From a virus: 61,490 nucleotides of DNA. Every line of letters starts with the position of its first letter. Position 1 is the first letter of the stretch. The position numbers and the translations under genes were made by a program. Location of the stretch: IMG/VR virus record IMGVR_UViG_3300035665_000036, positions 1 through 61,490 of that record; one strand, given 5' to 3'. Below, one piece after another: positions 1 to 49,586 of this stretch. Under the pieces are notes generated by a model, which saw only the letters and a program-made list of their open reading frames with translations, did not search any database and had not been told where the DNA came from.

Positions 1-414
1 CACAATTTCTTTACGAGCCATTTCTACAGCTTTTTCATTTCTGAATTGATAACTTGACAAGGCAGATTGAACATCTCGATCACGAGTGAGTTCTACATTC
101 CGTCTTTCCAACGCTTCTTTCTCAGCTTTGATTTCAGCTAATTGTAACTCATAAGCTTCTTTGTGTTTACCTTCATCTTGTAAACGTTGTAATTCTGCTT
201 CTTTTTCTTTTTGTTTGTAAGTGGCAAGTTCTTTTAACACATCGTCTCTTGCACCGTATGCTTTATCTAACTTACCTTTAATGTCTTTGAGACTTTCCTC
301 CAACCGTTCTTGTACAAGTTTTTCAATTAAATCTTTTTCAGAATCAGTGTTGCCAGTGGTTTTATCATCAACATTTGTATTTTCTGGATCTGTATTATCA
401 GTGTTTGTAGTCAT
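1..414 (-). CDS. Putative scaffold/capsid assembly protein, partial
   Basis: The gene starts with ATG at 414 and runs off the left edge, so only about 138 residues are visible. The N-terminus is Thr/Asn/Asp-rich (MTTNTDNTDPENTN), followed by a long charged helical stretch rich in Glu, Lys and Leu (residues about 30-120) that should form a coiled coil. This composition, and the position right after the portal and MuF genes where head scaffold genes usually lie, suggests an internal scaffold that is removed during head maturation. An AAGGT sequence precedes the start. A promoter-like repeat lies just upstream (513-530). Function is inferred from composition and position, not from a recognised domain. 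Confidence 0.6.
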   Translation of the reverse strand, partial: MTTNTDNTDPENTNVDDKTTGNTDSEKDLIEKLVQERLEESLKDIKGKLDKAYGARDDVLKELATYKQKEKEAELQRLQDEGKHKEAYELQLAEIKAEKEALERRNVELTRDRDVQSALSSYQFRNEKAVEMARKEIV

Positions 415-512
415 TGTTTTACCTTGAGTACGACTCGTTATGAGAAAAATACAATTTTTCTCTTGGAATTCATTTAGTATAATTTTGTATTTAATTACAA
501 CTTCTATTATAC

Positions 513-530
513 GGGTTAATTTAACGGGTT
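513..530 (-). promoter_or_regulatory. Phage promoter-like repeat, copy 1
   Basis: On the minus strand this reads AACCCGTTAAATTAACCC. It is one of five copies in the window, each in a short gap ahead of a minus-strand gene block. It begins 4 bases past the stop of the MuF-RNAP gene and lies upstream of the scaffold-like gene. Size and placement fit a promoter for a single-subunit phage RNA polymerase; the ATTAACCC core also occurs in the T3 promoter. Role is inferred. Confidence 0.6.
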
Positions 531-533
531 TCG

Positions 534-3500
534 TTAACCTACTCCGTACCATCCGTAATCATTTTTGAAATCTGAAGGAACTTCTTTTACAATGTCTTCT
601 TTCAAAAGAATATCAGACTCTTTAAGAACCTTTCCTCCGACAACAGACCTACCTGCAATCGGAATCAAACCGATGTCTATTGCTTCGTTCAGATACTGAT
701 CGTAAAGTTCTTGAGGTAAACCTCTTGCCCTCATCTCATCCAGAGTAGACACTATAACATTTCTGTCCAGTGTTTTTGCATAGATTTTTCTCAAAGCATT
801 TCTGGCATTCAACATATCAGCTGCATTTGCAAAGAAAGCGTCATGAATAGTGCTCGTGGGAATGTTATTTTCCCTTCCCCATAGATGAAAATTTTTAACA
901 ATTGTCGCGTCGTTAGAATGGTTCCCGTTAACTGCAAAGGCAGTACGCGCTCTTGTTGAATCGGCAATATCATTTATTTTACCGTCCTTATTCATCATCT
1001 CTTCCCACCAAGTTACTTCAGTTTTTTGAGGTACTTGCAATATATTGGTGGTCCACTCGCCTTGTTTATTCTTATAAAAAAGCCTTTCTTCAAATTGTTG
1101 TGTGAAATTTTGTTCGATCACTTTACCATCAAAATTAACCCAAGGAACGTTTGTCCATGATTTAGGCATTTTATTGGCACTCAGTAATTCCACTTCAAAC
1201 ACATCTTGCTCTTGAATAAACTTACCTTTTAGTAAATTAGAAGGTGTTGGCAATGCAGGTCTTAAGAAAGACAATTTAAAGTATTTACCACCTGTACGTC
1301 TTGTTTCCGGTGTTGCTGCACCATAAAGAATGTCATGTAGGTTACTATTTGGCTTATAAAAACTTAAGCGTTTCAAAGCTTTCTCACTTAAAGATTCTCC
1401 AGCTTTTAAGCCTAAGATTCTGCTAAGTGTATCTGGCAGAACATACCCTTTCTTTTTACTGCCAAACACTTTTTCTCTCACAATTGCATTCCAATCAAAA
1501 GCAGCTGTGGATGGCTTTGCATTATTCAGATAGTCTTCTGCAAGTCTGCCAAAGAACTTTGTAAAGTCTTTTAAGATAGGTACTTGCTCTCTCAGATGTT
1601 CGCTCATTATTTTTGCAATATCTTTAAAATCACCTGGAGTGACAATCCTTTCATAATTTAGAGAAAGTTTCTCCACAAGATCTTTTGTCTTAGGCTCCAA
1701 GAAATAAAGCTGATCTAAAATCTCATCACCTGGATCTAAACCTTTATTAAAGATGTCTTTAACGTTTTCTCTAAGTGCTCTTAGTTCATCTGCAGTCACT
1801 TGATCAAACTTATCGTACCTTGCAATACGAGCTGATATCTCATTGAGTACAGTTTCACGATCTGAAGCCTTAACAACTAACGTATCCTTATCTTTGCCAA
1901 GGACTTTTGATAATTTACCTTCTACATTAAGTGTGCCAGTCCTTTCACCAGCACCATAGAACGTAACCATATTTTGCGCCTTGGCAGCCTTACGCAAATC
2001 TTTCTCTGTAAGGCCTAGCTTTTCGTTGATTACTTTGAATCGCGGATCGTTGAATGTTGAAGCTGCAATCTCATCATACAATCTTCGCTTTTGATTTGTA
2101 GGTACTACATTTGACAACTCAGCAAGCTGTTTGTTACGGGTGGTCAACGCGATAATTTGGGCACCAGATGATGACGCATCTTGTTCGAGAGCTAAGGATA
2201 TTTTGTAATTACGAAGTTTTTCTAAGTTCTGAGAAGAATATGGATCAACACTTGTGATCTTTTTCCAGTTCCACCCATATAACTCTGCCTCATTGTTTCC
2301 ATAAGTGTATTTAAAAGGTTTTTCAATAGCAGCGCCAACCTGAATTTCACCGAGCAGCTCTACCTCCACAGGCTCCGTTACCCATTTTTCGTTTGTAATA
2401 TCTACATCAGGTACTTGAGTCTTTGTAGGATTTGTGAATTTAGTATCACTAGGTGCTTTATACACGTATAGCTTTTTACCTTTTAAATTCATTGACATTG
2501 CCTTTAATGCTGAATCAATATCACCTGCGAATGAAATTCTTTTTGTTGTATTATCTTCAAATCCTTGCTTAGTTAAAAAGTTAGAAGGTATACGGGGTGT
2601 GAATTTTGTATCTGTAAGTGGTACTGTGCTTATATGAAACAATTCGCCTCTGTCTGGAAAATTGCCTGCAGTCTTTTTGAGATAGTTATCAATCTTAGCT
2701 TGCTCTATGGCAAACCTGAAAAATTTACCCAGTTCTTCACCTTCAATCATATGTGTTATGTCAGCTTCAAGGATCGCTCTGATATCTGCAGGCTTCTTTG
2801 ATAACATCAAATTACCAATTCTGACAATTTCAGGTCTCCACTTTTCAGCAACCTTTTGTCTTCCAGTGATTGTGAGTGAATTATATTTACCTTCAAACTC
2901 ATCACTGAGACCACCTAAGAAAGCACCTATTTGATCTTGGAAATCTTTGAATTCTTCTGGACTGAAATTCTTTGCTTCTGCTGTATTGAGGAACGGTCTA
3001 AACGTCTCTCCAGATTGTGGTCCGATAAGACCTCTGTCATATATCCTTGCTCGATGATCGATAAAAGGATGATTTGAAAAAGAGCGTCCATTAGCTCGTA
3101 ACCACTGCATAGCTTTAAAGCGCTCATAAGCATCACCACGAGATGCGATATACTTTCTGTACTCATTACGCTCATCATAGAACTGAGCTTTTCCTCGATC
3201 ATCTTTGAAGTAGAGTAATTTATCAATGAAATCATAAAAGTCTTCATCCACTTTGTATTTTGTCTTAGATGCCCATGTCAACGCATCCACCATATTCTTG
3301 TCAATAAACTCTTCAGGAAATTCGCTGAAGCTTGAAGATGAAGTGATTGGAATTCTTGTGTCTTCCAAACCCAATATGCCTCTATCCATCCAGTAAGTTT
3401 TATAACCTTCTCTAAATAATAATCGATTATCATCTCTTGTTACGCTTACACGTAAGCCTAAATCTACTTTACGGTTTAGTCGGGAGTACTCTTGTATACG

Positions 3501-5630
3501 TGGATCTGTGACCCTTATATTATACGACATTGTATCATAATATGGACCAAAATAAGCGCCACTCACACGGCTTTTCATTCTGCGTTTTTGAATACCAAAT
3601 GGTTCAACTTCAAAGAATTTATCAACCTTTTTGCTCTCAAGTATTTTCATGCCAAGATCAAACCACTGACGTCTCCAACCATTTAGGTTTGCCATGTTGT
3701 AAAGATCTCTGCCTAACATTACAGCAAATTGATCTCTGTCTGGACTGTCAGCCAAACTTAACCTGTGAGCAAATCTCAAGTAAAATTGATGCAAGTCATC
3801 TTCAGATAATCTGCTTCTGATTTTAATTGGAATTTGAGGATCTAAAAATGTTCTTAATTCATTAGCGATCTTAGGAGCAACTTTATCTTCCCATTGATTT
3901 CTTGCTCTTATATTTTTATAAAAGTTATCGTGCAAATCATCAAGTTGAGTAGCGCCTAAAACAGGATCAATATAATTGTCTTGAAGTAATCGTTTCATCA
4001 CATCTGTATCTTTTCGCAGTTGTGTTTCAATTGCGTCAGAGACGTTCATCACATCAAATTTTATTTGTGACTGAACAACGGCTTTGAAATTACCCCAGAC
4101 TTCTTTATTATCTCGATATCTGCCAAATACAATTCTCAAGTTATCTGCAATTACGGCTCTTTCATTAACACTCATTGTGTCTGATAACTCGTTCACAAAC
4201 TTGGTTATGAATTCCTTATCTCTGTCCAAGAGCTTATCGCTGTCTTTAATTAATTGTAAATTGTTATTGAGTACATAAGTGTTTGGTTGATAAAACCGGA
4301 CGTCTTCATATCTACCTGTGGCAGGATTGAATTTAATCTGGTCTTCTCTCGGTGCAGAGGTTAGCATCCTATTTCTAGTAGCTTTCTTATTGTGAAGGAG
4401 AGTGCCACGATAATTAGTATAAGAGAGTGTTCCTTCAAGCTCTTTAGTTTGTAATATGTAGTAATCAAGTAATGTTTTCCTCAATTTATCATTCTGAATA
4501 AAATCATCCGGTGTGGTTGCCCATAACTGCATTGCATCTAATTTCGCCTTAGCGTTGGCAAACTTAATTGTGTCGCCATTTAACTCATAAGTAGAATCTG
4601 TTGCGGCTCTCAGTTGTTTAACGCCTAGACTCTCGCCCTTATAATTCACAAATTGATCCACAGTCAGTTTACCTGTGTTCAAAAGATCAACTTTTTGATA
4701 ATCACCTAAATGTTTAAATTGAGTATCTCTCGGTTGTCGCATGAGCCAATCATTATAGCTTTCTTTCAGTGGCGTTTGACCATCATAATAGGCAATTTGC
4801 TCTTTTGTTAAACCTTCTAAGTTTCTTCGTCTCACTTGAGCAACACCTTCTAGCTTAGAAATGTCATCCCAGGATTTAAAAACTGGAACTGTTGTGGAGC
4901 GGCAATTAAAGTGCGCAGGAGGCAGATGCTCCGTGTCCCCCATGTCATAGATATGCCCATCGCGGTGCGCACACAGAGGCGTGGTCCTCGCGTCCAGAAC
5001 GGCCACATACTGCCACCCTCTGAGTGCCTTTTCGTTGGCACGGTAAACAGCGTGGTCAACCTGAGCGTGGACACTGGTGATTGCAGTAACCACTAATGAT
5101 CTAGACTGCATTCTGGTTATATTGTGAATGTTGCCTTTACGAATTTCTAAAGCAATTTCATTTGTTGTCTTACCTTCAGAAATACCTTTGCGAATCAAGG
5201 CTTCAATTCTTTTCTTTTCAGAAGTACTCACACCTGACCAACCAGAAGCAAGTGTTCTATTTTCAAACAACGGTTTTTCAAGAACAATCTCTTCTGATAT
5301 ACGTCTTTGCGGTCTTTCTGTGCGCCAGATTTTACCCATCGTTGTTTCGACAGTTTGATACGCGAAAGATGCTTGATCTGCTGCGAAGTCTAGTAAAGAA
5401 CGCTTTGATGTATTATGAGCTTCACGATAAGTACGTAATAGCTCTTTATCCAAAGCGTCTTTGAATTTCTTTGATTTTAAATCGGAGGAACCTACCAACT
5501 TGTCTAACCTAATAACGTGGCCATCAATGATTACTTCAATCTTATCATTGACACCTTTCTCAAATAAGCGTATCATTGCCGCTCTGTCTAGTGCTTTGTC
5601 ATATATTTCAGTATTTACATTAATGGCCAT
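534..5630 (-). CDS. MuF head protein fused to T7/N4-type RNA polymerase
   Basis: The product has 1698 residues. Residues about 130-250 match the MuF/SPP1 gp7 minor head family: an Arg/Thr-rich helix, then W-x4-LD-R-T-x3-C220-x-H-x-DG, and PP-x-H240-FNC243-R. The C-terminal two thirds carry single-subunit RNA polymerase motifs: D858-HRARIYD-x-G with GPQSG (the DxxGR region), motif A EQD1151-ASSSGAQ, motif B R1213-x3-K1217-x3-M-x3-Y1225-G with exactly T7 spacing, and motif C IH-D1597-AFF. All catalytic Asp, Lys and Tyr positions are present, so the polymerase should be active. MuF proteins sit at the portal vertex and some enter the cell with DNA, so I infer a virion RNA polymerase that transcribes early genes, as in N4. 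The A-to-B gap (66 residues) is short and B-to-C (380) long compared with T7. It lies between the portal cluster and a scaffold-like gene. Confidence 0.88.
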   Translation of the reverse strand: MAINVNTEIYDKALDRAAMIRLFEKGVNDKIEVIIDGHVIRLDKLVGSSDLKSKKFKDALDKELLRTYREAHNTSKRSLLDFAADQASFAYQTVETTMGKIWRTERPQRRISEEIVLEKPLFENRTLASGWSGVSTSEKKRIEALIRKGISEGKTTNEIALEIRKGNIHNITRMQSRSLVVTAITSVHAQVDHAVYRANEKALRGWQYVAVLDARTTPLCAHRDGHIYDMGDTEHLPPAHFNCRSTTVPVFKSWDDISKLEGVAQVRRRNLEGLTKEQIAYYDGQTPLKESYNDWLMRQPRDTQFKHLGDYQKVDLLNTGKLTVDQFVNYKGESLGVKQLRAATDSTYELNGDTIKFANAKAKLDAMQLWATTPDDFIQNDKLRKTLLDYYILQTKELEGTLSYTNYRGTLLHNKKATRNRMLTSAPREDQIKFNPATGRYEDVRFYQPNTYVLNNNLQLIKDSDKLLDRDKEFITKFVNELSDTMSVNERAVIADNLRIVFGRYRDNKEVWGNFKAVVQSQIKFDVMNVSDAIETQLRKDTDVMKRLLQDNYIDPVLGATQLDDLHDNFYKNIRARNQWEDKVAPKIANELRTFLDPQIPIKIRSRLSEDDLHQFYLRFAHRLSLADSPDRDQFAVMLGRDLYNMANLNGWRRQWFDLGMKILESKKVDKFFEVEPFGIQKRRMKSRVSGAYFGPYYDTMSYNIRVTDPRIQEYSRLNRKVDLGLRVSVTRDDNRLLFREGYKTYWMDRGILGLEDTRIPITSSSSFSEFPEEFIDKNMVDALTWASKTKYKVDEDFYDFIDKLLYFKDDRGKAQFYDERNEYRKYIASRGDAYERFKAMQWLRANGRSFSNHPFIDHRARIYDRGLIGPQSGETFRPFLNTAEAKNFSPEEFKDFQDQIGAFLGGLSDEFEGKYNSLTITGRQKVAEKWRPEIVRIGNLMLSKKPADIRAILEADITHMIEGEELGKFFRFAIEQAKIDNYLKKTAGNFPDRGELFHISTVPLTDTKFTPRIPSNFLTKQGFEDNTTKRISFAGDIDSALKAMSMNLKGKKLYVYKAPSDTKFTNPTKTQVPDVDITNEKWVTEPVEVELLGEIQVGAAIEKPFKYTYGNNEAELYGWNWKKITSVDPYSSQNLEKLRNYKISLALEQDASSSGAQIIALTTRNKQLAELSNVVPTNQKRRLYDEIAASTFNDPRFKVINEKLGLTEKDLRKAAKAQNMVTFYGAGERTGTLNVEGKLSKVLGKDKDTLVVKASDRETVLNEISARIARYDKFDQVTADELRALRENVKDIFNKGLDPGDEILDQLYFLEPKTKDLVEKLSLNYERIVTPGDFKDIAKIMSEHLREQVPILKDFTKFFGRLAEDYLNNAKPSTAAFDWNAIVREKVFGSKKKGYVLPDTLSRILGLKAGESLSEKALKRLSFYKPNSNLHDILYGAATPETRRTGGKYFKLSFLRPALPTPSNLLKGKFIQEQDVFEVELLSANKMPKSWTNVPWVNFDGKVIEQNFTQQFEERLFYKNKQGEWTTNILQVPQKTEVTWWEEMMNKDGKINDIADSTRARTAFAVNGNHSNDATIVKNFHLWGRENNIPTSTIHDAFFANAADMLNARNALRKIYAKTLDRNVIVSTLDEMRARGLPQELYDQYLNEAIDIGLIPIAGRSVVGGKVLKESDILLKEDIVKEVPSDFKNDYGWYGVG

Positions 5631-5906: not shown

Positions 5907-6046
5907 TTCTTTTTCCTCTTTTGTTTAGTATGTTTAGCCACATCTAACGCAATTGCAATTGCCTGTTTTTGTGGTTTACCTACTTTCATCTCGGTAGAAA
6001 TATTCTCAGAGACAGTTTTCTTTGAATAACCTTTCTTAAGGGGCAT
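5903..6046 (-). CDS. Short basic DUF6496-like protein
   Basis: This short gene encodes 47 residues, MPLKKGYSKKTVSENI followed by a segment containing GKPQKQAIAIAL and a Lys/Arg-rich tail. The MPLxKGxSxKxxSENI...GxPxKQAxAIAL pattern is that of the small DUF6496-type proteins common in tailed phages, whose role is unknown. AGGAG lies 7 bases before the ATG. It overlaps the portal stop by 11 bases and the next gene's start by 4, so it belongs to a tightly coupled portal operon. Confidence 0.75.
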   Translation of the reverse strand: MPLKKGYSKKTVSENISTEMKVGKPQKQAIAIALDVAKHTKQKRKKK

Positions 6047-7610
6047 TATTTGCTCCTATTGCGTTTGCATTTTCTGCATTCTGATCTGTTGGCATCAACA
6101 ATTTATCGGCAGTTATCTCTTGAATAGCTTCCTCATCATTGTAATCAGGTGACACCAAATCATTTTGCTTAAGTAAAACCAACCAAACAGATCTCGGCAA
6201 TAAGCCTTGTTGATACCATTCGGTTGCCAATCGTAACCAATCAGCTCCAATTGGAACAGGGTTGAAATCTGTGGACAATGAAAACTCTATTTCAGAAACT
6301 CTTAATTGCAAGTCATAACGCCAATTCACCATAAACACAATTACTTGTGCCATGATATTACTCACTTTATTATTCAAGGTACCCAACTGCGCTGTCTGAG
6401 CTGCATTTCTGATTTCCAATGCAACGCCTGATTGTTCAGTTTCAGGACTTAACATTCGGATACCCAGTTTAGCCATCTCTTCAATACTGGAAGCAATTGC
6501 TCTGTCCATGTCTTGAAGTGCTGCTGTTGGAGTTTCCAAGACCTTGGCATCATCACCTTGTCTCAAACGCAGCCATGTACCTAAACCACCACTCACAATT
6601 TCATCAAATTCTTCGTCAGTCATGTCTGAAATAATCACTGGTGTATAGGTTGCAGCGCCATAAAGTAAATGATTACGTCTGCTGATTTTGTTGTATAGAC
6701 TCACTTCTTTGTCAATAATGGCGGATAACATTGGTTCGACTAAGTCTATTGAACCATTTAGGGGCCAAGCTGGTATTATATTAATTGGCTCCCCATTTGC
6801 CAAAATATTACTGAAAGTATCAATCAAATCAAATTTAATTGCATTATTTGCAATTTCAACATTTTGCTTAGTTCCTCCGATTACAGGAACACTGGTGGTA
6901 TTCGAAGATCTTTGGAATTTTCTTATCTGATATTTACTTTCAACAAGTTCATGGACGTATACAGTGTCTTTGAATGTTGGATGAAACTCATTCTCATCAT
7001 AAGATTCTTCAAACACTCTGACAATTACCCTGTCCAAAATTGCCTTGCCATACTGATTCTCGCTAACTCTCCAGTTCACAACCTGTTCAGCTTTTCTGAG
7101 CACTGGATATGGTTTAAAGTTTAACAATTCTTCTTTTGTGTATGATTCTGCATTTTCCACAACAGGATAATCCACAAAAACCCATGCCCTAGATGTTTGC
7201 ACTTCTTCCCAAAGAGCTGCATCTAAAAATGCAGCCAAAGGAGAATCATCCTTGCCAAATTCGTTTATGATCCAATCATAAGCTTCTTCAGGAATGCCAT
7301 CAGGTAACTCTAATAAAGGCTTCTTTCTGAGCAATCCACCAATAATCATTTTTGCAAATTGTGCAGTGATACCTGGTAATTCAGCTTCAGCTTTGTAAAA
7401 TTTGTATTGAGCTTGACTCATACTTGGTGAAAACGGTATCAAAAGATTCTTGAATGTTAATACATCAATATTCGCATCAAAGTCTTTTACATACTGTTCA
7501 CCACTGCACACAGCTCTGCATTTTTGCCATAAAGGGCTCAATGACTCATAAGCTGCATTTGGATCTGCGACTGTTTTAACAGCCGATTGTGCTGCATTTG
7601 TTACTGCCAT
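6036..7610 (-). CDS. Portal protein (DUF4055-like)
   Basis: This 524-residue protein would form the dodecameric ring at the head vertex through which DNA enters and leaves. Recognisable portal features include an N-terminal segment with LWQKCRAVCSGEQYVK, a central LLRKKPLLELPDG region, and a C-terminal helical part with SGVALEIRNAAQTAQLG, which in this family forms the crown-side helices. It best matches the DUF4055 portal-like family of siphoviruses. GGAGG lies 4 bases before the ATG. It is followed by the MuF fusion two small genes later, the usual portal-MuF-scaffold order. Confidence 0.85.
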   Translation of the reverse strand: MAVTNAAQSAVKTVADPNAAYESLSPLWQKCRAVCSGEQYVKDFDANIDVLTFKNLLIPFSPSMSQAQYKFYKAEAELPGITAQFAKMIIGGLLRKKPLLELPDGIPEEAYDWIINEFGKDDSPLAAFLDAALWEEVQTSRAWVFVDYPVVENAESYTKEELLNFKPYPVLRKAEQVVNWRVSENQYGKAILDRVIVRVFEESYDENEFHPTFKDTVYVHELVESKYQIRKFQRSSNTTSVPVIGGTKQNVEIANNAIKFDLIDTFSNILANGEPINIIPAWPLNGSIDLVEPMLSAIIDKEVSLYNKISRRNHLLYGAATYTPVIISDMTDEEFDEIVSGGLGTWLRLRQGDDAKVLETPTAALQDMDRAIASSIEEMAKLGIRMLSPETEQSGVALEIRNAAQTAQLGTLNNKVSNIMAQVIVFMVNWRYDLQLRVSEIEFSLSTDFNPVPIGADWLRLATEWYQQGLLPRSVWLVLLKQNDLVSPDYNDEEAIQEITADKLLMPTDQNAENANAIGANNAP

Positions 7611-14069: not shown

Positions 14070-15416
14070 TTAAAAATTAAAACCACGAGAAGTTCTTTTA
14101 CTTCCCGAATTTATTGGAAATAAGTATTCAACACCATACCTTATTCCGTCTGAAAAGTGCTCAATGCCCTCTGATTTATCAATCGTGGCGGTATCTGGAT
14201 TCTTATCAACCCACTTTGTACGTTCTAATGATTGTATCGTTCCTACACATCTAGGATGGATGTATATGTCGATATCTCCAGCGGCTGTCATTAATTTCTT
14301 ATTAACTGCAGCAACACTGTCCACTATCGGTGGAGCTTTAGGGTGAGCCAAACATTTAATACCATATGACTCAAGAATACTGAAATCTGTTCTACCTACA
14401 GCGGCAGAAGTCTTACGAGCCTTTCCTGAAGGATCAGGGTAAGCGAATATTCGGTGCCCTTTATACTTAGTACTTAAGGCTATGGCCAATGTTTCTGTGT
14501 CTGGGTGCCCTTTCATTTCATCTAAGAAATGCATTTGCTTGCCTCTGACAGCAAATATGGATGTGGCCTGTATACCAACGTTAAAGTCGATACACACATG
14601 TACATCCTCTCCTTTTTCTTGTCCTTGTGGTGCCAAAAAGTCTTCAAGATCATTTGTGATATGCTTTCTTCTGTCAAAGCAATAGAACACATTGTTACCT
14701 GAATCTGCAAATGAAGCTAAATACTCGGAAGCAAATTCAATTGGATCGATTGTGTGCTTGATACGCTCAATCTCGGCCACATCTAGATAAGGCGATTGTT
14801 TATAGTCATAGTGATATGACTTCCAATTCTTGTCTGTGGATTCATATGTGTGCATCTCATGAAAGAAGTTATAGCCTTTTGGTGTACTGATTATTAATGC
14901 TCTACCTGGAGCAGGGGCACCGTATGATAAAGCCCTTTCGTTTGACCACCTTGTGATAATACATGGTTGGATAACACCTTGCCATGCTTCTTTTGGGGAT
15001 ATCCCTTTCTTACATGAAGATACTTCATCCCATACAACAAAATACGCACCTTTACCTCTCATCCGTTCAACGGCTTCGTAAGATAGCAACCGGAGTTCCA
15101 CGTTATTCGGAAACACAAATCTACCCAAATCACGAGAAGACTTGATTGCCCAATGTTCAAGCCCCAAATCATAATTGAGTAACGGATAATAAATATCAGT
15201 CACCTGATCATAAGTTGGGGCTATAATATAAACGGTTTTGTTTGGTATATTTGCTCTCAATTGCAGCAGTTCTGCAATGGCAGTCACAGCAACAGTTGCA
15301 GCTAAATAAGACTTACCAAAACCACGAGAGCAACACATCACGGCAAATCTACATACTTGACCATAGAACAAATCTTCATACACTTCTGATTGTCCAGCAT
15401 GTAAATTAATGGCCAT
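14070..15416 (-). CDS. terL: Terminase large subunit
   Basis: This is the packaging motor ATPase and nuclease, 448 residues. Near the N-terminus is a Walker A-type loop CCSRGFGKSY, then Walker B YFVVWDEVSS with the catalytic Glu. The C-terminal RNase H-like nuclease has acidic residues in VCIDFNVG and AYPDPSGK and the family ending HFSDGIRYGVEYLF. The start chosen is the ATG at 15416 because GGAGG lies 9 bases upstream; a TTG 30 bases further has none. It overlaps the end of a 56-residue gene by 11 bases. The putative small subunit is five genes upstream. Confidence 0.93.
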   Translation of the reverse strand: MAINLHAGQSEVYEDLFYGQVCRFAVMCCSRGFGKSYLAATVAVTAIAELLQLRANIPNKTVYIIAPTYDQVTDIYYPLLNYDLGLEHWAIKSSRDLGRFVFPNNVELRLLSYEAVERMRGKGAYFVVWDEVSSCKKGISPKEAWQGVIQPCIITRWSNERALSYGAPAPGRALIISTPKGYNFFHEMHTYESTDKNWKSYHYDYKQSPYLDVAEIERIKHTIDPIEFASEYLASFADSGNNVFYCFDRRKHITNDLEDFLAPQGQEKGEDVHVCIDFNVGIQATSIFAVRGKQMHFLDEMKGHPDTETLAIALSTKYKGHRIFAYPDPSGKARKTSAAVGRTDFSILESYGIKCLAHPKAPPIVDSVAAVNKKLMTAAGDIDIYIHPRCVGTIQSLERTKWVDKNPDTATIDKSEGIEHFSDGIRYGVEYLFPINSGSKRTSRGFNF

Positions 15417-15576
15417 CGAAATGATCCTCCACAAATTCACACTCAAACATTCTTCTATATTCCTTTTGATCTCTGATTAGCGTCTTCGGAGGCTCTGCTT
15501 TTGGAGGCCAAATAATGTCCTTGGGTTTTTCTTTCAGCTCGTTCAATTCATAAAACATAGATTCTCTTCTTGTCAT
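15406..15576 (-). CDS. Small hypothetical protein before terL (56 aa)
   Basis: These 56 residues are charged, with a Pro-rich centre (WPPKAEPPKTL). The ATG overlaps the stop of the upstream gene (ATGA), and the 3' end overlaps the terL start by 11 bases, so translation is coupled. I do not recognise it. Linker-like small proteins in this position may assist packaging. Confidence 0.6.
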   Translation of the reverse strand: MTRRESMFYELNELKEKPKDIIWPPKAEPPKTLIRDQKEYRRMFECEFVEDHFDGH

Positions 15577-16849: not shown

Positions 16850-16867
16850 GGGTTAATTTAACGGGTT
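16850..16867 (-). promoter_or_regulatory. Phage promoter-like repeat, copy 2 (late)
   Basis: Minus strand AACCCGTTAAATTAACCC, identical in its 16-base core to the other four copies. It lies 28 bases downstream of a strong terminator and upstream of the terminase and structural genes, so it is well placed to start the late transcript. Confidence 0.7.
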
Positions 16868-23023: not shown

Positions 23024-23041
23024 GGGTTAATTTAACGGGCT
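23024..23041 (-). promoter_or_regulatory. Phage promoter-like repeat, copy 3
   Basis: Minus strand AGCCCGTTAAATTAACCC. Its CGTTAA supplies the last codon and stop of the upstream zinc-finger gene, so gene end and promoter are interlocked. It precedes the 22339-22914 gene. Confidence 0.65.
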
Positions 23042-23388
23042 TGGAGCCGCTTCAACAACTCTGTGAGTTCGAGCAGTTTTTCCTGCACTTTAGCCGTTTC
23101 TGCAGCCGCTGGGCATGCGTCTCGACGTTTTTTGGGGCAGGTAAAGTCACAGCCATGCCGTGCGTCGCCCGTGACAAAATCCAAAGGCTTTAATTTGCCC
23201 TCTTGAATATTGTGCTGGACTATTGAAGAGTTGCCCTTCTCGATGCACAATCTACATATCCATACTCGCCTCCCAGGTTTTGTTTTAAACTCCAAATATG
23301 CACCACTTTGACACAAAGTCGAACTGCATAATCTGCAAATCTTTTCGTGATGTTCAAAGCTTATATTTCTTACATTTGGGTGTCTCAT
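23032..23388 (-). CDS. Cys-rich zinc-binding protein
   Basis: These 118 residues contain CRLCSSTLC, ICRLC and a further C-DFTC-x6-DAC set, so at least two zinc sites, followed by a C-terminal coiled-coil helix (EKLLELTELLKRLQAR). It overlaps the DHH phosphoesterase gene by 4 bases, suggesting a shared role in nucleic-acid handling. No named family recognised. Confidence 0.65.
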   Translation of the reverse strand: MRHPNVRNISFEHHEKICRLCSSTLCQSGAYLEFKTKPGRRVWICRLCIEKGNSSIVQHNIQEGKLKPLDFVTGDARHGCDFTCPKKRRDACPAAAETAKVQEKLLELTELLKRLQAR

Positions 23389-24239
23389 ATCTTTGCCAAT
23401 GGATGATCTCTCGAAACCCTAAATCCTGCTGCGTGTTCATGACCGCCACCTCCGTAATTGGCTGCGATTTTTGCCACGTTCAGACCATCTTTCGTAGATC
23501 TTAAGCTGAAGTTACGATGTGTTTCCGTGTCGTAATATGTACCTCCGACACCATGTATTTTTTGCTTTGCAAGTAGATTGCCGACGTCAGAAGAATACAT
23601 GTGATTTGCATTTGCCATTTGCACAAGCAACCTTTGACCTTCATCCAAACTAACCTCGTTATCTAACACAAACGGTCTGGCACAAGTTGCAACTATCCGT
23701 TCCACATTTGCGTCATGGTCTTTGATCAAGGCACTTCCAATCAACTTCAAGCGAGATAATGTCAAATCTGTTAAGTTTTTGTATGTGGGTTGTCCCGAAT
23801 ACAAAGCTGCACAAATTTCTCTTGTGCCTTCCATTTCAAATTTCCATAAGTCTCTGTCTTCGATGTGACGATAAAGTTGTGAAGGTCTGACTCCGAATTG
23901 ATACTCCCAAGCAATTATGCAACCGGATTTTGTTGTTGTACAGTGGCTCATGTTCAAATTGCCATACTCGATAGGTATCTTGTGTAACTCATTTATTGCA
24001 GACTCATGGTGATCCAAGACATTCACCACAGAGGCTTGTTTCAAAATCTCAATCATCTCAGGCATTTTATAACTGAAATCCAACATGTACACAACACGGT
24101 CTTTCACGTCTGGTATAGGCTCTCCGTATACACCTTCAAAGTATTCGTAATAATCGCCTGCGGCATCATAAAATGCGGCTGCAGCCGCAATACCATCCAA
24201 ACAACCTTTGTGATAAATTACTAACGGTTTATTGTTCAT
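23385..24239 (-). CDS. DHH-family phosphoesterase
   Basis: This 284-residue protein has the DHH superfamily motifs: D15-GIAAAAAF, LDFSY (D54), DHHES (D76-H-H), and near the C-terminus GGGGHEHAAGF, the DHHA1-type substrate-binding signature. Relatives (RecJ, NrnA) hydrolyse single-stranded DNA, short RNAs or cyclic dinucleotides; lack of extra domains suggests an oligonucleotide or dinucleotide enzyme. The ATG at 24239 has AAGGAG before it; the frame is open further upstream but without support. Cyclic-dinucleotide cleavage as anti-defence is possible. Confidence 0.85.
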   Translation of the reverse strand: MNNKPLVIYHKGCLDGIAAAAAFYDAAGDYYEYFEGVYGEPIPDVKDRVVYMLDFSYKMPEMIEILKQASVVNVLDHHESAINELHKIPIEYGNLNMSHCTTTKSGCIIAWEYQFGVRPSQLYRHIEDRDLWKFEMEGTREICAALYSGQPTYKNLTDLTLSRLKLIGSALIKDHDANVERIVATCARPFVLDNEVSLDEGQRLLVQMANANHMYSSDVGNLLAKQKIHGVGGTYYDTETHRNFSLRSTKDGLNVAKIAANYGGGGHEHAAGFRVSRDHPLAKI

Positions 24240-24249
24240 TTGTTTCTCC

Positions 24250-24309
24250 TTATTTAGTGTGTCTAGCCAATACTTCAGCAATCAATGCGACCAACTCATT
24301 TTGCCCCAT
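24250..24309 (-). CDS. Short peptide (19 aa)
   Basis: ATG at 24309 encodes MGQNELVALIAEVLARHTK, an amphipathic helix. It overlaps the preceding 19-residue frame and ends just before the DHH gene's ribosome site. It is a plausible small gene or leader peptide only. Confidence 0.35.
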   Translation of the reverse strand: MGQNELVALIAEVLARHTK

Positions 24310-28194: not shown

Positions 28195-29081
28195 TTATTT
28201 AATTGGGCAAATGCCGCTTGCACACTCATCATTTGACTCGTAATCAATGTTACCGGTCAGTGATGAGATGATTTTTGTTTTACCGACAAGATCATTGAAT
28301 TGTTCTTTTGTTATCGTTTCGAAAGGCGCTTGAGCAAACCCATGATCAGAATGTAATAAGAACGACAATGATTTGTGATTATGCTTGTAGTTTTCTCTTA
28401 GATATTGTTTGATATCTTCAATCTCTTCCTTGCGATAATACACGGTGCAACTTACACTGTTATCAGACCAAATTGATTGCAGCTTTTTGATCATCTTTAA
28501 CTGATCAATTGCTGTCATTTCTTTAGCCAATACAGTACCTTCTGGATAACTGAAAGGAAATGTCACCACCACTGTGTTGTAATCTTCAGAACCATCAAAG
28601 TTCTTCACGAATTCCACAGGGTAACCATTTTCTTTACATACACCGACTAAAGAATGCGAAGCCGCGATGCGTATTCTTCTGTACATATACTGTGCATATG
28701 CAGGATGAATACCTGGAGTCACACCTGGTAACAGTGATAATGTTCCAGAAGGTTTTACGGTTGTCAACTTGATTGAACGGTTCATGTTGTTTTCTTCTGA
28801 ATATTCTTCATCAAATATTCTTAAGAATTCATAACATTCATCCAACCAATCGATTTGTTCTTCAGTTGCTTGGAGAATACCAGTGACACCGATACCCATT
28901 CGCATGTTCTTGTGAACAATATGTTCTGTTTCTCTATTATGAGAAGGTAAGAGCAATGAATGTTTGTTTATGCGATACAGCAATTGAGCTACGTCAAATA
29001 ACTCTTCTTTCGATTCAATATTTGGCAAGAAAATTTCTGCCAAACAGCATGTCTCAAAATTTGCCAATGATTGTTCAGCAC
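28195..29081 (-). CDS. nrdJ: Class II ribonucleotide reductase, exon 2
   Basis: This is the second coding piece of the adenosylcobalamin-dependent reductase. Joined to exon 1 it begins in the middle of a Cys codon and reads CAEQSLANFETCCLAEIF, giving C348 and C359. Their spacing of 11 equals that of Lactobacillus leichmannii C408 (thiyl radical) and C419. The C-terminus DECASGICPIK holds the mobile redox pair C634/C639 typical of monomeric class II enzymes. Total length after splicing is 642 residues. This enzyme makes deoxynucleotides for replication without oxygen dependence. Confidence 0.88.
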
Positions 29082-29895
29082 CTCTATTGTTACCTGCATT
29101 TGCAGGGATTAGTCATTTCTGCTAATCTCTATGTGTCGCCACATAGAACAGACTATATCACCACCCTTTTCAGGGGTTTATCATCCGAGCTTGTATTGAA
29201 ATGATGGAAGAACATACTCAGAAACTATTTCTTCAAACAATTCTGAGTGTGCATTTGGTACAGCTAAATCATATTTATTACCCTTTTTTCTGGTATTTAT
29301 TTCCAGACCAAAGGTATCTTTCAATGATCTTTTAATTAACATTAAATCACCATAAGATAAATTATTTAAATGCAATCGATAAGAAGGTTTTGAATTAGCC
29401 CATCTTTTATCTTGGTAACGGCTCCCATCTGCCATGAATGCTATTGCTAGCATTTCTTCATCCATCATTGTTAACATATGGGGATCAATTACCTTCCTAC
29501 CATCTAAATAAATTCTTTCTGCTATCTTTGTTAATTTAGGATGATTTTTAGATTGCAACCTTAACTGTTGCTCTCTGTTAAAGCCATCTGCTGTGTAAAT
29601 TTTAGGTTCCGTTAATTTATAACCTAACGGAATCTCTTCCAGTGTTAATATTACTTTTTCTAGATAATCTCTATGTTTTTCTAACATATTAATTACCAAA
29701 CATGCATTAATTGATTCTCCAAAATACTGAAGACATCCATCAAACATTGCATAAGAATACAAACGTTTATTCAAATCTTTACTCATAGTCGTTGCTCCTC
29801 CCATATCGGGTTGGATCAGGATTGTCTATAAAGACTTCCCCTGAATTTAGATAAATTAATTCAAAATAGATTACTCTATTAGGCCGCTAGCTTTA
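29082..29895 (-). ncRNA. Group I intron in nrdJ
   Basis: The 814-base intron has the group I core: P AAATTCAGGGGAAG (29835-29848), Q GACAATCCTGATCC (29813-29826), R GCAACGACTATG (29784-29795) and S GTGATATAGTCTG (29149-29162), with GACTA of R pairing TAGTC of S. The 5' exon ends in U (CCG-T) and the intron ends in G (AATAGAG), as the family demands. Splicing here joins NP to CAEQ in frame, which no other position tested does. The ORF lies between R and S, in the P8 loop. Confidence 0.9.
29181..29786 (-). CDS. LAGLIDADG homing endonuclease in nrdJ intron
   Basis: This 201-residue protein has two degenerate LAGLIDADG motifs (LYSYAMFDGC near the start and LAIAFMADGS near residue 130), separated by a charged DNA-binding segment (RLQSKNHPKLTKIAERIY), like the LAGLIDADG_2 family. 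It would cut intron-free nrdJ alleles and spread the intron. The ATG at 29786 has GGAGGAG 8 bases ahead; that site and the start codon overlap the intron's R element, so folding of the intron may limit its translation. Confidence 0.82.
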   Translation of the reverse strand: MSKDLNKRLYSYAMFDGCLQYFGESINACLVINMLEKHRDYLEKVILTLEEIPLGYKLTEPKIYTADGFNREQQLRLQSKNHPKLTKIAERIYLDGRKVIDPHMLTMMDEEMLAIAFMADGSRYQDKRWANSKPSYRLHLNNLSYGDLMLIKRSLKDTFGLEINTRKKGNKYDLAVPNAHSELFEEIVSEYVLPSFQYKLG

Positions 29896-30937
29896 ACGGA
29901 TTATAACCTTCTACGTCTGGGTCTGGATACTCAAATTCTCCAAGTCTACCTATTTTACGTGAAAGATCTAGATTAATAAGGCCATAGGGCTCAGAGCCTC
30001 CTTCATAGCCTCTCCAGAAATACTCATGCAAATCATTGATATCATTACATATTACACTGTTATTGCTCATTGCACGATATGATGGTATATTCCCCATGCT
30101 CCAGTTTTTTGCCAATAGATACTCAACGTCATCGGGATCACCAATTGCAATTTGAGCACTTCTACGGACATTACCGGCCACAATAATTGCACCGATAACA
30201 TTCATAATATCCAATGCATCTACAGGTCTGATCTTCTTTCCTTTCTTGTTTTCGAGTATTTTGGATATTTCACCGATACCCCAGCAGAGATCTTCTGGAC
30301 CGCTTGCAACTCCGCCAAAACCTTTAATTGGAGTTCCCTTACCACGGATGGCTTGTGTGGAATACGTAAAAGTGCCATTGTCTGCTGTCTCACTTAAAAA
30401 TGCAGACTTAAGAACTTTACCCAAGAATTTAACCCAACCTTCTCTTGAGTCCGGAATGATGTAATCTGCACCACCATTGTCAACTCTTGTCGGTGCTCTG
30501 AACCAATCTTTGACCGCAGGCAGCTTTTCCACATTCTTTTTCTGAATGTTAAAACCCACACCACTGCCTAAAGCCAGCATGTCCATCGCCCATGTGAATG
30601 GTCTGACAGGGCTATCGATTGTTGTGAAGGCACAATTTTGCAATGAAGCCAACCCATATCTACCAACTGTTGCTGTACCAGCTTGCCACCAATAGCGACC
30701 TGCCACAGAGCCTTTTAAACCCAATAAATGTAAAGCCAATCGGTATTCTTCATCTTTTGTGAAGCCACAACCAAATTGTTCGTCACATGCATTGATTACA
30801 CGTAACACAGTGTCAGGAAATTCCTCTGTCTCATCTGACACTTCGTTCAGCTTTCTTGCATAGGTTCTTTTGTAAGTTAAATAACCCACAGTTGACCAAG
30901 GAGTTTCGATCTTCGGTAATTCTTCTTTTGTTAGCAT
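29896..30937 (-). CDS. nrdJ: Class II ribonucleotide reductase, exon 1
   Basis: This is the first 347 codons plus one base of the B12-dependent ribonucleotide reductase. It contains AGRYWWQAGTATVGRYG, LQNCAF (C102, partner of the redox pair) and LGSGVGFNIQ, hallmarks of the RTPR/NrdJ family, and NNSVICNDINDLHEYFW toward the end. The reading frame then runs into intron sequence and stops after LKLAA. It lies 14 bases after the primase-helicase gene. Confidence 0.9.
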
Positions 30938-32773: not shown

Positions 32774-33244
32774 TTATATTTCTCCTTTGAAATCGCCCCA
32801 AGACAGGGCTTTGTTTAAACGTTCTTTATGTCTTTCGGTTATATTTTCACTCACATTCCAAGAAATCTTTTCGATACGTTTGTTGTACCATTCCTTCTTG
32901 GTCGGTGCTTCCACGTGGCACAAAGACCATGTTTCTGCGTATGAAAGTGCTCCTTTGGCTTTGTATTGCTCTATGCAAATGAACTCAAAATCAGTCTTTG
33001 GTCTTTCGGCCAACATTTCTGAAATTGAATTACTTGAAGAGCAATATGTTTTCCAATTTGATTCTTGACCTTTATTTAACTTACCTGAGCCTTTGAAAAG
33101 TTTCTTTCCAAGATAGAAGCGTTTCATAAAGGGATCTCGAATCACATATATGAAACCCGAATAAGCATCTTTGTCCATCGGTTCTTCAAAATGCCAATGT
33201 CCATTTTTACTCAACGGTTTCACGATTACTTTAGGAATCACCAT
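32774..33244 (-). CDS. GIY-YIG-like nuclease-fold protein
   Basis: The sequence GFIYVIRDPFMKRFYLGKK resembles the GIY-x10-YIG core (here Y-I-R ... Y-L-G). It is followed by WKTYCSSS (as YYGSG in the family), a conserved E in YAETWSL and EWYNKRI (YN end). The 156 residues thus fit a GIY-YIG nuclease or resolvase such as those in phage recombination. The match is by pattern only. It overlaps the exonuclease gene by 14 bases. Confidence 0.6.
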   Translation of the reverse strand: MVIPKVIVKPLSKNGHWHFEEPMDKDAYSGFIYVIRDPFMKRFYLGKKLFKGSGKLNKGQESNWKTYCSSSNSISEMLAERPKTDFEFICIEQYKAKGALSYAETWSLCHVEAPTKKEWYNKRIEKISWNVSENITERHKERLNKALSWGDFKGEI

Positions 33245-38087: not shown

Positions 38088-38105
38088 GGGTTAATTTAAC
38101 GGGCT
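38088..38105 (-). promoter_or_regulatory. Phage promoter-like repeat, copy 4
   Basis: Minus strand AGCCCGTTAAATTAACCC followed by TCA. ATTAACCCTCA is also the start of the T3 RNA polymerase promoter. It lies 32 bases before the SSB start. Confidence 0.65.
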
Positions 38106-40000: not shown

Positions 40001-41071
40001 CTATGCAAAACAATATTCTGAGTCTAAAATTAAATTTAAGTCGAGCGTACCTATTTCTACATTACTAATATCTCCTTGTATATCATCCATAAGACTATTG
40101 AGAGGATCATTTGCATATAACTCCACAAATGTCTCTCTCACCAATTTAAACAGCTTCGGCATATCAGCTAACAAACATCCAAATGAATCATGTATGGTTG
40201 TCATTGGAAAATCAGCTCTGTATACCGTCAATGCCAAGTGTGCTGCATCCAAGCTGTGAATACAATTTGGACTCGCCCCTTGAGCTTGCTTACCTTTTGA
40301 TGGCACATGATCTTCAATGAAACACACTGCCAGTTGAAGCGTATTTTCAAAGTAACCTGAGCTGTTTCTTAAACCCAATGGCGGTCCATATTGCACCCAG
40401 ATTTTCTTCACTTTTCCCTCTGTATAGTGTTGTACCACAGGAAAATTGGTTATTGGAACAGTCCAAGAAAGAAATCTTTCTTCTGCTTCCGCCTTTTTGC
40501 CTGCTTCTTCAAATACAGTTAAGAGCTGCATAGGGCGTTCCAAGGCCGCTTTGCAAGTCTCCAGCACCATTCTGCCCATATAAGAACCCCACTTATGTTC
40601 CATAAATAGTAGAAGATCTATACCATGTTTTCTTGCATCATCAATTTGTTGTTGACCAAGCCCATATGCAGTTCCGCCATACGGCAACGTCATTACATTT
40701 CTTTTGACAACTTTTCTACGTTGTTTTACGTCTTTAACTCTGCACCAATATATAGGTGCAATTTTAGGTATTATATCTATGTTTTTGTCTCTAAATTCAC
40801 GAATACGCTCTAAAAGTTCTTTTCTTTGTTCACTTTTAAATTCAGCATTGTAAATATCCTTTTTCAATTGTATTAATGTATCTATTACAGTTTCGGCTTC
40901 TCCAATTTCTTTTTTGGTGAATTTTGATTTTTCAATTTCCAGCTTATCCCACACATAATCTGCAACATATTTATATAGATCTCCAGGCAACTCAAGAGGT
41001 ACTAAATTAACGTGCGGTGCAGTTATTTCATCTTTTGTAAGTGCAGATAAATGTTGACTACCGTTGTTCGA
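40001..41071 (-). CDS. T7-type RNA polymerase, exon 3
   Basis: This exon encodes residues 394-749 of the spliced polymerase. It starts SNNGSQHLSAL, the second half of motif A, and contains motif B R-KVVK516-RNVMTLPY524-G (T7 R-x3-K-x3-M-x3-YG exactly) and motif C TIH-D688-SFG. The TTG that opens the frame as an ORF (41072-41074) is the intron's last three bases, not a start. The enzyme transcribes phage genes from its own promoters. Confidence 0.93.
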   Translation of the reverse strand, partial: SNNGSQHLSALTKDEITAPHVNLVPLELPGDLYKYVADYVWDKLEIEKSKFTKKEIGEAETVIDTLIQLKKDIYNAEFKSEQRKELLERIREFRDKNIDIIPKIAPIYWCRVKDVKQRRKVVKRNVMTLPYGGTAYGLGQQQIDDARKHGIDLLLFMEHKWGSYMGRMVLETCKAALERPMQLLTVFEEAGKKAEAEERFLSWTVPITNFPVVQHYTEGKVKKIWVQYGPPLGLRNSSGYFENTLQLAVCFIEDHVPSKGKQAQGASPNCIHSLDAAHLALTVYRADFPMTTIHDSFGCLLADMPKLFKLVRETFVELYANDPLNSLMDDIQGDISNVEIGTLDLNLILDSEYCFA

Positions 41072-41828
41072 CAATATCTTCGATAGTGGTCGTTATGCAC
41101 TATCCGCTTGGCGGCTAAATATGTGTCCAACTCTTGCCTACTCGTATTGAGTAAATACAACCACAAGAAACTCCAAAAAGCTTGCCTATTTCAGTATTTG
41201 AATAGCCATTTTTTATGAGTTTTTTTATTTCAATTACATCATCATTGGTCAGTTTTACAGCCTTTCCTGCCTTTCTGTTTTCACCGATACTGTGTAAACC
41301 TGTTTTAAAAGCATGCCTGTGATTGTCACCAACCGACATCCATTCTAAATTAGAAACCTCGTTGTTGGTTTTTATACCGTCAATATGATTAACTGTCTCT
41401 AATTTATCGGGATTTTCTAAAAATGCTTCCGCAACAAGTCTGTGTACTTTTCTTGTCAGTGCCTTACCTTTTACGTGAAGTGTCACCAACTCATAGCCAT
41501 AGCGATCAAGCCTTGTTCTCATTATCAAATTTCTTTTATTGCTTATAACTATTCCATCATAAGTGATAGAATACTCTCCGTTTGTATTTTCTATTTCTTT
41601 TATCATTTTAATTACCTTGTTTAAATAAAAATCAGCCGCCAAGCTGCTGCAAATTACTCTGCAGATGAGACTATATCTTGCATAATAAATATGCCCCTGT
41701 GTTTCGAGCCACTCGGCCCTACATAATAGTCGTTACACCTAAGAACGTCTGAGGACGTTATTTTGGCTCGGTATTGTCCTTTGCAGGAGTTTCACCGAAT
41801 TTACAGGATTTAACGACGGCTCTTACAA
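41072..41828 (-). ncRNA. Group I intron 2 of the RNA polymerase gene
   Basis: The 757-base intron is inserted between the Gly and Ser of motif A (DG|SNNG). Core elements: P AAATTCGGTGAAAC (41789-41802), Q GACAATACCGAGCC (41765-41778), R GTAACGACTATT (41725-41736), S CAAGATATAGTCTC (41667-41680). The 5' exon ends in U (GACGGT) and the intron in G (GATATTG). Splicing restores CFVDGSNNGSQH, the complete catalytic motif. The endonuclease ORF lies after S, in a P9-type extension. Confidence 0.92.
41115..41606 (-). CDS. HNH homing endonuclease in RNAP intron 2
   Basis: 163 residues with a small N-terminal beta domain (YSITYDGIVISNKRN), an HNH core (KVHRLVAEAF, VNHIDGIKTNNEVSNLEWM) and a C-terminal helix-turn-helix for target binding (YSNTEIGKLFGVSCGCIYSI). 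It would cut intronless RNAP genes. ATG at 41606 has AAGGTAATTAAA before it. Confidence 0.9.
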   Translation of the reverse strand: MIKEIENTNGEYSITYDGIVISNKRNLIMRTRLDRYGYELVTLHVKGKALTRKVHRLVAEAFLENPDKLETVNHIDGIKTNNEVSNLEWMSVGDNHRHAFKTGLHSIGENRKAGKAVKLTNDDVIEIKKLIKNGYSNTEIGKLFGVSCGCIYSIRVGKSWTHI

Positions 41829-42263
41829 ACCGTCAACAAAGCACTCTAAACTTGAAGAATACCCAAAATCATTGAATGGATCTAGATGGAATCCATGCTT
41901 TATTTGCCACTCTCTCAATTTTTTAAGCTCATTACATGCCGCAAGGAATTGCCAAGGTTTATCTGCTTTCATCCAGCCTTGATTCACCTTGGGTTGCATT
42001 GCGTAATCAAGTAATATGTCTTCATTATCTGTGGACCATAAATACCTGTCCTTGAGTGGAATCTTATCCGTTTTTGCCCCGTCTTCTCTTCCAGATGCTC
42101 CTGCCCAATTTGAAGCAATACTGACCATAAGCCAAAAGAAACCCTCCTTTCCAATCTCCTTTTTGTCTTCTCTCAGCAAAAGACCTTTTGCTAAGTCAGT
42201 ACCTTGTTCATGAAAATAAGCTGTTGCTGGATATCTTCTACCACGGAAGTCATAATAATAACG
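41829..42263 (-). CDS. T7-type RNA polymerase, exon 2
   Basis: This 145-codon exon starts RYYYDFRGRRYP, the DxRGR element that contacts the DNA-RNA hybrid, and HEQGTDLAKGLL, close to T7 NPQGNDMTKGLL. It ends at the catalytic Asp of motif A (FVD392-G). The frame is open upstream into intron 1, but those residues are intron. Confidence 0.93.
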
Positions 42264-43051
42264 CATTTGTTCAGAAAATTTCGCTAATATTTTCTCGTTA
42301 ATTAACATGTGACCAATTTCTTCCTGTTCGTATACAGTTAATTGTGCCAGGATGCACACCGAATAATAATGCAATTTCTTTATTGGAAAAACCTGCAGAG
42401 AACATTGCTTTTATATCTCTCACGGACTCTTCATTTAATTTAGAATTTATTGCCGTGGTACCCTTCACCATCAATCCCAGATCTTTTGCATGTCTGACAT
42501 TTTCTAGTTGTGTGCACCATTCTAAATTATCAATATTATTATTCTTTTTGTTTGCATCTAAGTGATTTACTTTTGGCAATTTAAGCGGATTTGGTATAAA
42601 AACTAATGCCACTAATCTGTGAACCATTTCTTTCTTACTTTTACCGTTATAACTCAGTGGCACTTGTAAATAACCTAGACCATTGTCATTTTGTTTCAAG
42701 ATACGTCCGGCTTTTATATATTCCCCGCCAAAAGTACTTTTGACAATCCTATCTTTACTCTTTACATTGCCATAAGAAGAAACTTCATAATACTCATCAA
42801 AATCTTTCCAGATTTCCATAATAATCTCCGACTATTTTAAGTTAATTAACAGCTGTATATTACTATACAGTTCAGACTATATCATCTTGGCATCCGCCAA
42901 GCTCCGCGCTTCCACTAAGCTATTAGTGTACTCTACTAAGATTAACAAACATCCGTCTGTTCTTTTCGATAGTCGTTGCACCTTTTGAAGGCTCAGGATT
43001 GTCCTAAGGATGTTTCCTGAATTCACGGAGTTTACTACCACCGAAATATTA
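42264..43051 (-). ncRNA. Group I intron 1 of the RNA polymerase gene
   Basis: The 788-base intron has P GAATTCAGGAAAC (43012-43024), Q GACAATCCTGAGCC (42990-43003), R TGCAACGACTAT (42969-42980) and S AAGATGATATAGTCTG (42873-42887). The 5' exon ends in U (TACCAT) and the intron ends in G (CAAATG). Joining gives KTFYH-RYYYDFRGR, which aligns without gaps to other single-subunit polymerases. Its P, Q and R elements resemble those of the other two introns. Confidence 0.9.
42298..42819 (-). CDS. HNH homing endonuclease in RNAP intron 1
   Basis: 173 residues: NUMOD4-type start EIWKDFDEYYEVSSYGNVKS, HNH core MVHRLVALVF and VNHLDANKKNNNIDNLEW, and a C-terminal helix-turn-helix (FSNKEIALLFGVHPGTINCI). 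It is clearly related to the other HNH ORF, so the two introns share an origin or exchanged endonucleases. Confidence 0.92.
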   Translation of the reverse strand: MEIWKDFDEYYEVSSYGNVKSKDRIVKSTFGGEYIKAGRILKQNDNGLGYLQVPLSYNGKSKKEMVHRLVALVFIPNPLKLPKVNHLDANKKNNNIDNLEWCTQLENVRHAKDLGLMVKGTTAINSKLNEESVRDIKAMFSAGFSNKEIALLFGVHPGTINCIRTGRNWSHVN

Positions 43052-43795
43052 ATGGTAGAAAGTTTTCCCAATGAACCTTTTCGCAATATTTCCGATGGCT
43101 TTTGCTTCTCTCAGCTTAGTGGCTTTTGCTTCAGGATTTTGAGAATCCCATATATCAGAAAATGCTTCTGTTTTATTTCGAAGCGCCCAACTGTACATGT
43201 GAAACACGTCATTGTTAACACGCCAACCCATTGCTTGAGATCTATTTATGCACTCAAATATGATCGGGTGTGTTTCTGGAGTGACTTTTGACATCACTTC
43301 CTTGCTACCTGTCTTAATCATAACAACACCGGATTCATGCCTCAAATTTGTCCAAGGCGCATACGGTGTTAATGACGGTAATTTTTCCACGGCATTTACT
43401 TCGACTTTCTCCCACAATTCGCATATGATTTCATCATTTAGCACTTGAATGATGTACGCTGCATGTTTGCCATTTGACTTGCCCAAGAGTACTGTGAGCA
43501 CTTCAAGCTCTTCAAATGAGTAAAGTAAGAATGCCCCTGTCTTTGCAGCCAAGGAAGAGTCTTTTTTCATCTTGTATTTGCTTCTGACTCCATGTCCAAT
43601 TGCAGAAATAACTTCGGTTAGATAAATGGTGTTCTTTTTTGAACCCTTTTTTGACCTTGTATATAGATAGACGATTGATACAAGAACATCGAAGTAGTCT
43701 TCCACTTCAAGCTCCTTCAAGTATTTCAAAGGATTTTGATTTGATATTTCATTTGCCAATCTGGATTTCAATGATGATATTAATATTTGTCTCAT
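43052..43795 (-). CDS. T7-type RNA polymerase, exon 1
   Basis: The first 248 codons of a spliced 749-residue polymerase. It contains the N-terminal domain and ends IAKRFIGKTFYH. LTPYAPWTNLRHESGVVMI resembles the segment before the palm in T7 RNAP. At 749 residues the enzyme is shorter than T7's 883, mainly at the N-terminus. Its start overlaps the upstream membrane gene (ATGA). Confidence 0.88.
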
Positions 43796-45126: not shown

Positions 45127-45153
45127 TATCATATAAGATACCATATTTTCCGC
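45127..45153 (-). promoter_or_regulatory. Early promoter-like element C
   Basis: Plus-strand TATCATATAAGATAC then 12 bases ending TTTTCCGC. It is one of three copies of a 27-bp element, each starting in the gap after a gene. No -35 box lies at the right distance, arguing against a host sigma-70 promoter. Confidence 0.6.
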
Positions 45154-47311: not shown

Positions 47312-47338
47312 TATCATATAAGATACTCAATTTTCCGC
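47312..47338 (-). promoter_or_regulatory. Early promoter-like element B
   Basis: Plus-strand TATCATATAAGATAC then TCAATTTTCCGC, matching elements A and C at 23-24 of 27 positions by eye. It overlaps the stop codon of the upstream Cys-rich gene and lies 83 bases before the exported repeat protein. Confidence 0.6.
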
Positions 47339-49559: not shown

Positions 49560-49586
49560 TATCATATAAGATACCCAAATTTACGC
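49560..49586 (-). promoter_or_regulatory. Early promoter-like element A
   Basis: Plus-strand TATCATATAAGATAC then CCAAATTTACGC. It is 31 bases before the hydrolase gene and 104 bases from promoter copy 5, so the block has two different promoter-like elements in series. Confidence 0.6.

Follow-up and report, generated by a model that had tools for sequence, protein, structure and literature searches.

Can a phage head protein also be the RNA polymerase that first transcribes the phage genome? This question is raised by a single gene in a 61,490-base viral sequence (IMG/VR record IMGVR_UViG_3300035665_000036), here called the window, which is the whole of that record and in which no end repeats were found. 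The original prediction was that positions 534-5630 encode a MuF head protein fused to a complete single-subunit RNA polymerase (RNAP), a likely virion RNAP. The coordinates are right, but the gene is on the minus strand, as are nearly all genes of the window. Our analysis confirms the fusion and supports the prediction, although the virion RNAP reading remains an inference.

A minor head domain and a polymerase in one polypeptide

The region 534-5630 (minus strand) is one open reading frame of 1698 amino acids. Residues 141-247 (4890-5210, minus strand) form a MuF (Mu F/SPP1 gp7) domain, with matches to PF04233 (E 1.1e-13) and TIGR01641 SPP1 gp7 (E 3e-17), and residues 1-576 match the head morphogenesis family phrog_241 (E 5e-61). 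PF04233 was found in all six relatives scanned. Residues 577-1698 (537-3902, minus strand) form the single-subunit RNAP region, which matches PF00940 (E 9e-11) and phrog_414 RNA polymerase (E 6e-18). No other Pfam family passed the cut-offs. The gene position agrees with a head function. The portal gene lies upstream at 6036-7610 (minus strand; phrog_145 E 2.5e-55), and a probable head scaffolding gene follows at 1-552 (minus strand), which is cut by the contig end and has only a weak phrog_2303 match. In the relative L034 (L and G numbers denote the records and contigs compared here) the order is portal, MuF-RNAP, scaffold (E 5e-12), major head protein (E 4e-22), head-tail adaptor and major tail protein. 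The terminase large subunit of the window is at 14070-15446 (minus strand; phrog_2 E 5e-31).

The catalytic elements are well conserved. Motif A (EQDASSSGAQ, D1151; 2157-2186, minus strand), motif B (residues 1213-1226, RKAAKAQNMVTFYG; 1953-1994, minus strand) and motif C (IHDA, D1597; 837-848, minus strand) are where the original prediction placed them. In addition, a DxRxR element (D858-R862, corresponding to T7 D421-R425; 3045-3059, minus strand) and a T7-H784-like element (VNGNHSNDA, H1571; 906-932, minus strand) are present. In 64 full-length relatives, D858, R862, D1151, K1217, Y1225, G1226, H1571, H1596 and D1597 are invariant wherever the sequence extends that far; D1597 is present in 61 of 61. 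One correction is needed, since R1213 (T7 R627) is kept in 60 of 64 relatives but is alanine in the DSS3 phages, and so is not universal. Relatives that failed a strict pattern keep the motif B and C core residues when read by eye, but in two of them (L161 and L170) the H784-like HS.D pattern was not found. The spacing is as predicted, with a short A-B distance (63-65 amino acids) and a long B-C distance (253-598 amino acids). The fusion is not a product of chance: 118 retrieved contigs carry it as one uninterrupted frame of at least 1400 amino acids, and dN/dS in the RNAP part is about 0.04-0.09 where dS is not saturated, indicating purifying selection.

The predicted fold agrees with the motifs. 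A sequence search of the PDB with the full protein gave no hit. An AlphaFold2 model of residues 500-1698, built with 37 sequences, has a pLDDT of 75.6 and a pTM of 0.72. Foldseek against the PDB returned T7 RNAP (E 7e-13, probability 1.00) and mitochondrial RNAPs as top hits; against viral models, it returned the DSS3_VP1 homologue, free phage RNAPs and several N4-like virion RNAPs. The TM-scores are modest (0.3-0.4 by query length, about 0.5 by T7 length), as expected with large extra domains. A model of the MuF part matched no solved structure significantly, so delivery rests on sequence family and gene order. Profile alignment joins the family to T7 RNAP over the DxxGR and motif A region (E 2.5e-6; D1151 aligned to T7 D537), while N4 mini-vRNAP gives no significant match (E 0.2) and phrog_2166 only E 0.036. 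The suggestion in the original prediction that this polymerase may be a separate branch is therefore plausible, though it does not rest on a tree.

Distribution, introns and inserted domains

The family includes at least 556 IMG/VR contigs, the EBPR siphovirus ESV1 and the cultured Naomviridae roseophages DSS3_VP1 and DSS3_PM1, the former grown on Ruegeria pomeroyi DSS-3. In 50,697 phage records the RNAP part hits only ESV1, DSS3_VP1 and DSS3_PM1, where the protein is annotated as 'head protein' or 'minor head protein-like protein'. Of 84,980 prokaryote genomes, only one MAG gave contigs with the gene (JAOUJT010000001 and JAOUJT010000313). These GTDB 'Gammaproteobacteria MAG' contigs look like phage, and the 74,179-base one has the same length and match as the IMG/VR record L095.

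Group I introns (or, in ESV1, an HNH-bearing interruption between two halves) lie inside the MuF-RNAP gene of L006, L010, L011, L014 and L017; Rfam group I matches were obtained for L006, L010, L011 and L014. The interruptions fall inside motif B (after residue 1218 or 1222), after residue 1569 at the H784-like site, or before motif A. The site just before motif A is also a hot spot of in-frame domain insertion. The window carries an optional domain there at residues about 985-1128 (2247-2678, minus strand), which is absent from relatives that are 98% identical elsewhere (L003 and L010). It has no Pfam or NCBIfam family and no tblastn hit in phages, and resembles only phrog_5043, a family of unknown function. 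L002 and L028 carry a phrog_5043-like domain as well, L024/L031 and L032 carry unrelated sequences, and most relatives carry none. Between the window and L002 the insert is 92-100% identical in DNA while the flanks are about 65-80%, which indicates recent transfer. A different in-frame insertion of 230 amino acids, after residue 1107 of the L034 protein, makes the MuF-RNAPs of L061, L049, L057 and L062-L064 about 1775 amino acids long.

A second polymerase and two promoter-like motifs

The genomes also encode a second, free T7-like RNAP (RNAP2). In the window it lies at 43795-40004 (minus strand) in three coding pieces, identified by tblastn with the RNAP2 of G007: 43019-43795 (61%), 41829-42260 (64%; PF00940) and 40004-41071 (74%; PF00940 E 4e-44). 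The first interruption contains an HNH/NUMOD4 endonuclease frame (42298-42819, minus strand; PF07463, PF13392) and the second an HNH endonuclease frame (41115-41642, minus strand; PF13392). Neither gave an Rfam group I match at E < 0.5. Fifteen other MuF-RNAP contigs of at least 49 kb have RNAP2, as do DSS3_VP1 and DSS3_PM1; the examined contigs under 46 kb show only one RNAP. Twenty further contigs of at least 60 kb, chosen only by the motif M2 described below, all carry both polymerases. In total, all 36 related IMG/VR contigs of at least 49 kb that we examined, including the window, encode two RNAPs. G041 seemed to lack MuF-RNAP, but the gene is cut by the contig end. ESV1 lacks RNAP2; however, its record also lacks DNA polymerase, helicase, ligase and RNR and is titled partial. 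Since the original paper lists ESV1 as complete, discounting this exception is a matter of judgement.

An unbiased search of intergenic DNA identified two promoter-like motifs, M1 (AACCCCGTTAAATTAACCC) and M2 (TGCGGAAAAnnnGGTATCTTATATGA). In the window M2 occurs three times against 0.00 expected from shuffles, at 45129-45153 (0 mismatches, about 1.3 kb upstream of RNAP2), 47314-47338 (1 mismatch) and 49562-49586 (2 mismatches), and M1 occurs five times against 0.06 expected, all on the minus strand. The M1 sites are at 513-529 (0 mismatches, just after MuF-RNAP and before the head genes), 16850-16866, 23024-23040, 38088-38104 (downstream of RNAP2) and 49690-49706 (about 100 nt upstream of the first M2 site). 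The real start of the scaffolding gene is probably downstream of the M1 site at 513-529. In nine genomes of 36-63% GC, the M2 core occurs 26 times on the sense strand and never antisense, and 21 of 26 sites lie within 8 kb upstream of the RNAP2 start, against 11% expected (binomial 3e-16, overstated because the genomes are related). The M1 core occurs 41 times sense and never antisense, with 6 of 41 sites in that interval. M2 is rigid, with GCG 14 nt upstream of the core in 22 of 26 of these sites. A 109-site matrix, most of whose sites were selected by a pattern with that block, shows no -35 box and no conserved complementary arms (C at +13 in only 2 of 109 sites), so neither a sigma70 promoter nor an N4 hairpin is indicated. 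DSS3-clade phages have M2 homologues in the same register (TGAGAAAA...GGCATCTATAATGA; the TGAGAAAA...ATCTATAATGA sites in DSS3_VP1) right after the tail genes and upstream of RNAP2, and an M1-like motif (AATAGGKTRCGTTAAAGA).

A probable virion polymerase and its alternatives

We consider it likely that the protein is a minor head protein carrying an active T7-type RNAP. From its family and gene position, the MuF half is inferred to place it at the portal inside the capsid, from which it would leave with the DNA at infection. The polymerase would then transcribe the early region from M2, which lies 1-6 kb upstream of the RNAP2 gene, and the newly made RNAP2 would read M1 for middle and late genes, including the head operon. 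The positions of the motifs are established, but their recognition by either polymerase is inferred. The inference rests on order: RNAP2 is downstream of M2, so something already present must read M2, and a head-protein-borne RNAP fits. N4 provides a precedent, as its vRNAP transcribes the genes of RNAPII (PMC12633501). First transcription would thus be independent of host RNAP, and, more speculatively, the polymerase may also help pull in the genome. There are no virion proteomics or transcription data, nothing directly links M2 to MuF-RNAP rather than to RNAP2 or a host holoenzyme, and M1 also sits upstream of the first M2 in most genomes.

Two alternatives appear unlikely but deserve attention. 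Host RNAP could transcribe the early genes from M2 or from ordinary host promoters, with MuF-RNAP packaged mainly as a motor that pulls the genome in. The DSS3-clade M2 contains TATAAT, T7 RNAP appears able to pull in DNA, and the N4 authors propose that vRNAP transcription pulls in the genome (PMC12633501). However, M2 is a rigid 25-nt block with a conserved GCGgAAA starting 14 nt upstream of the core and no -35 box, the same in genomes of 36-63% GC, and all 20 long M2 contigs checked carry MuF-RNAP. Alternatively, the promoter roles could be swapped or shared, RNAP2 reading M2 and MuF-RNAP reading M1 or both. Both motifs are private to the group as far as seen, and no lineage with only one RNAP was found that would separate them; a scan for M1 returned contigs overlapping with the known group and did not discriminate. 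Against this, RNAP2 lies downstream of M2 and could not start its own synthesis, and the head genes behind M1 need a polymerase made in quantity during infection, although this too is inference.

That the RNAP domain is a catalytically dead scaffold or a DNA-binding plug of the portal is very improbable. The loss of the R627 equivalent in the DSS3 clade could be read that way and no activity has been shown, but the catalytic aspartates, K1217, Y1225, G1226, the motif C histidine and DxRxR are invariant where present, and dN/dS is low. An assembly or gene-calling artefact is refuted by the 118 closed frames from many metagenomes and by the cultured DSS3 phages.

Comparison with known systems

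The system shares with the N4-type virion RNAP (Schitoviridae gp50, phrog_2206) a single-subunit T7-superfamily RNAP in a large virion-module protein, in a phage that also encodes a second RNAP behind early promoters, if M2 is a promoter. It differs in size (about 1450-1780 amino acids instead of 3500), in the MuF N-terminus beside the portal, in the long-tailed phage genes, and in the lack of a detected gp50-type metallopeptidase or C-terminal domain and of a conserved hairpin in M2. MuF domains with a C-terminal enzyme thought to be injected were described in a 2017 survey (PMC5512222), whose cargoes include RNases, RelA/SpoT, PRTase, 2H and a zeta-like kinase. We found no RNAP there, and the survey states that N4-like virion RNAP modules occur only in N4-like phages. 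With T7-like (Autographiviridae) RNAP the protein shares the predicted fold, the catalytic motifs and a rigid promoter-like motif of similar length, but here the RNAP is fused to a head protein and has short A-B and long B-C spacing and optional inserted domains. The crAss-like and phiKZ-like/PBS2-like enzymes, which appear to be packaged early RNAPs, are double-psi beta-barrel (multisubunit-type) enzymes, while the fold and motifs here are T7-type.

Literature searches found no description of a MuF-RNAP fusion, although prior notice in the original DSS3_VP1 paper cannot be excluded. Established carriers of virion RNAPs appear to be limited to N4-like, crAss-like and phiKZ/PBS2-like ones. A MuF-borne enzyme would extend this strategy to a large group of long-tailed phages, give MuF proteins a new cargo, and supply a compact RNAP-promoter pair that needs no DNA hairpin. 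It is fairly probable that these proteins are a distinct class of virion RNAP with its own duplex promoter class, M2, and that, through the insertion hot spot in the palm, the same injected protein may deliver additional effectors.

The DSS3 phages have dU-DNA (PMC12697855), but this is not a general reason for a virion RNAP. A dCMP deaminase (PF00383) was found in 4 of 17 MuF-RNAP records (L018, L019, G010 and G017, two of them the known dU-DNA roseophages) and not in the window, and no PF22769 dCTP deaminase was found in 15. Other genes of the window, all on the minus strand, include a ribonucleotide reductase (28195-30937) split around a LAGLIDADG endonuclease frame (29181-29804), a free-standing SegE-like GIY-YIG endonuclease (32774-33244) between helicase and 5'-3' exonuclease genes, and a DHH/DHHA1-family phosphoesterase (23385-24281), possibly an oligonucleotide-degrading enzyme.
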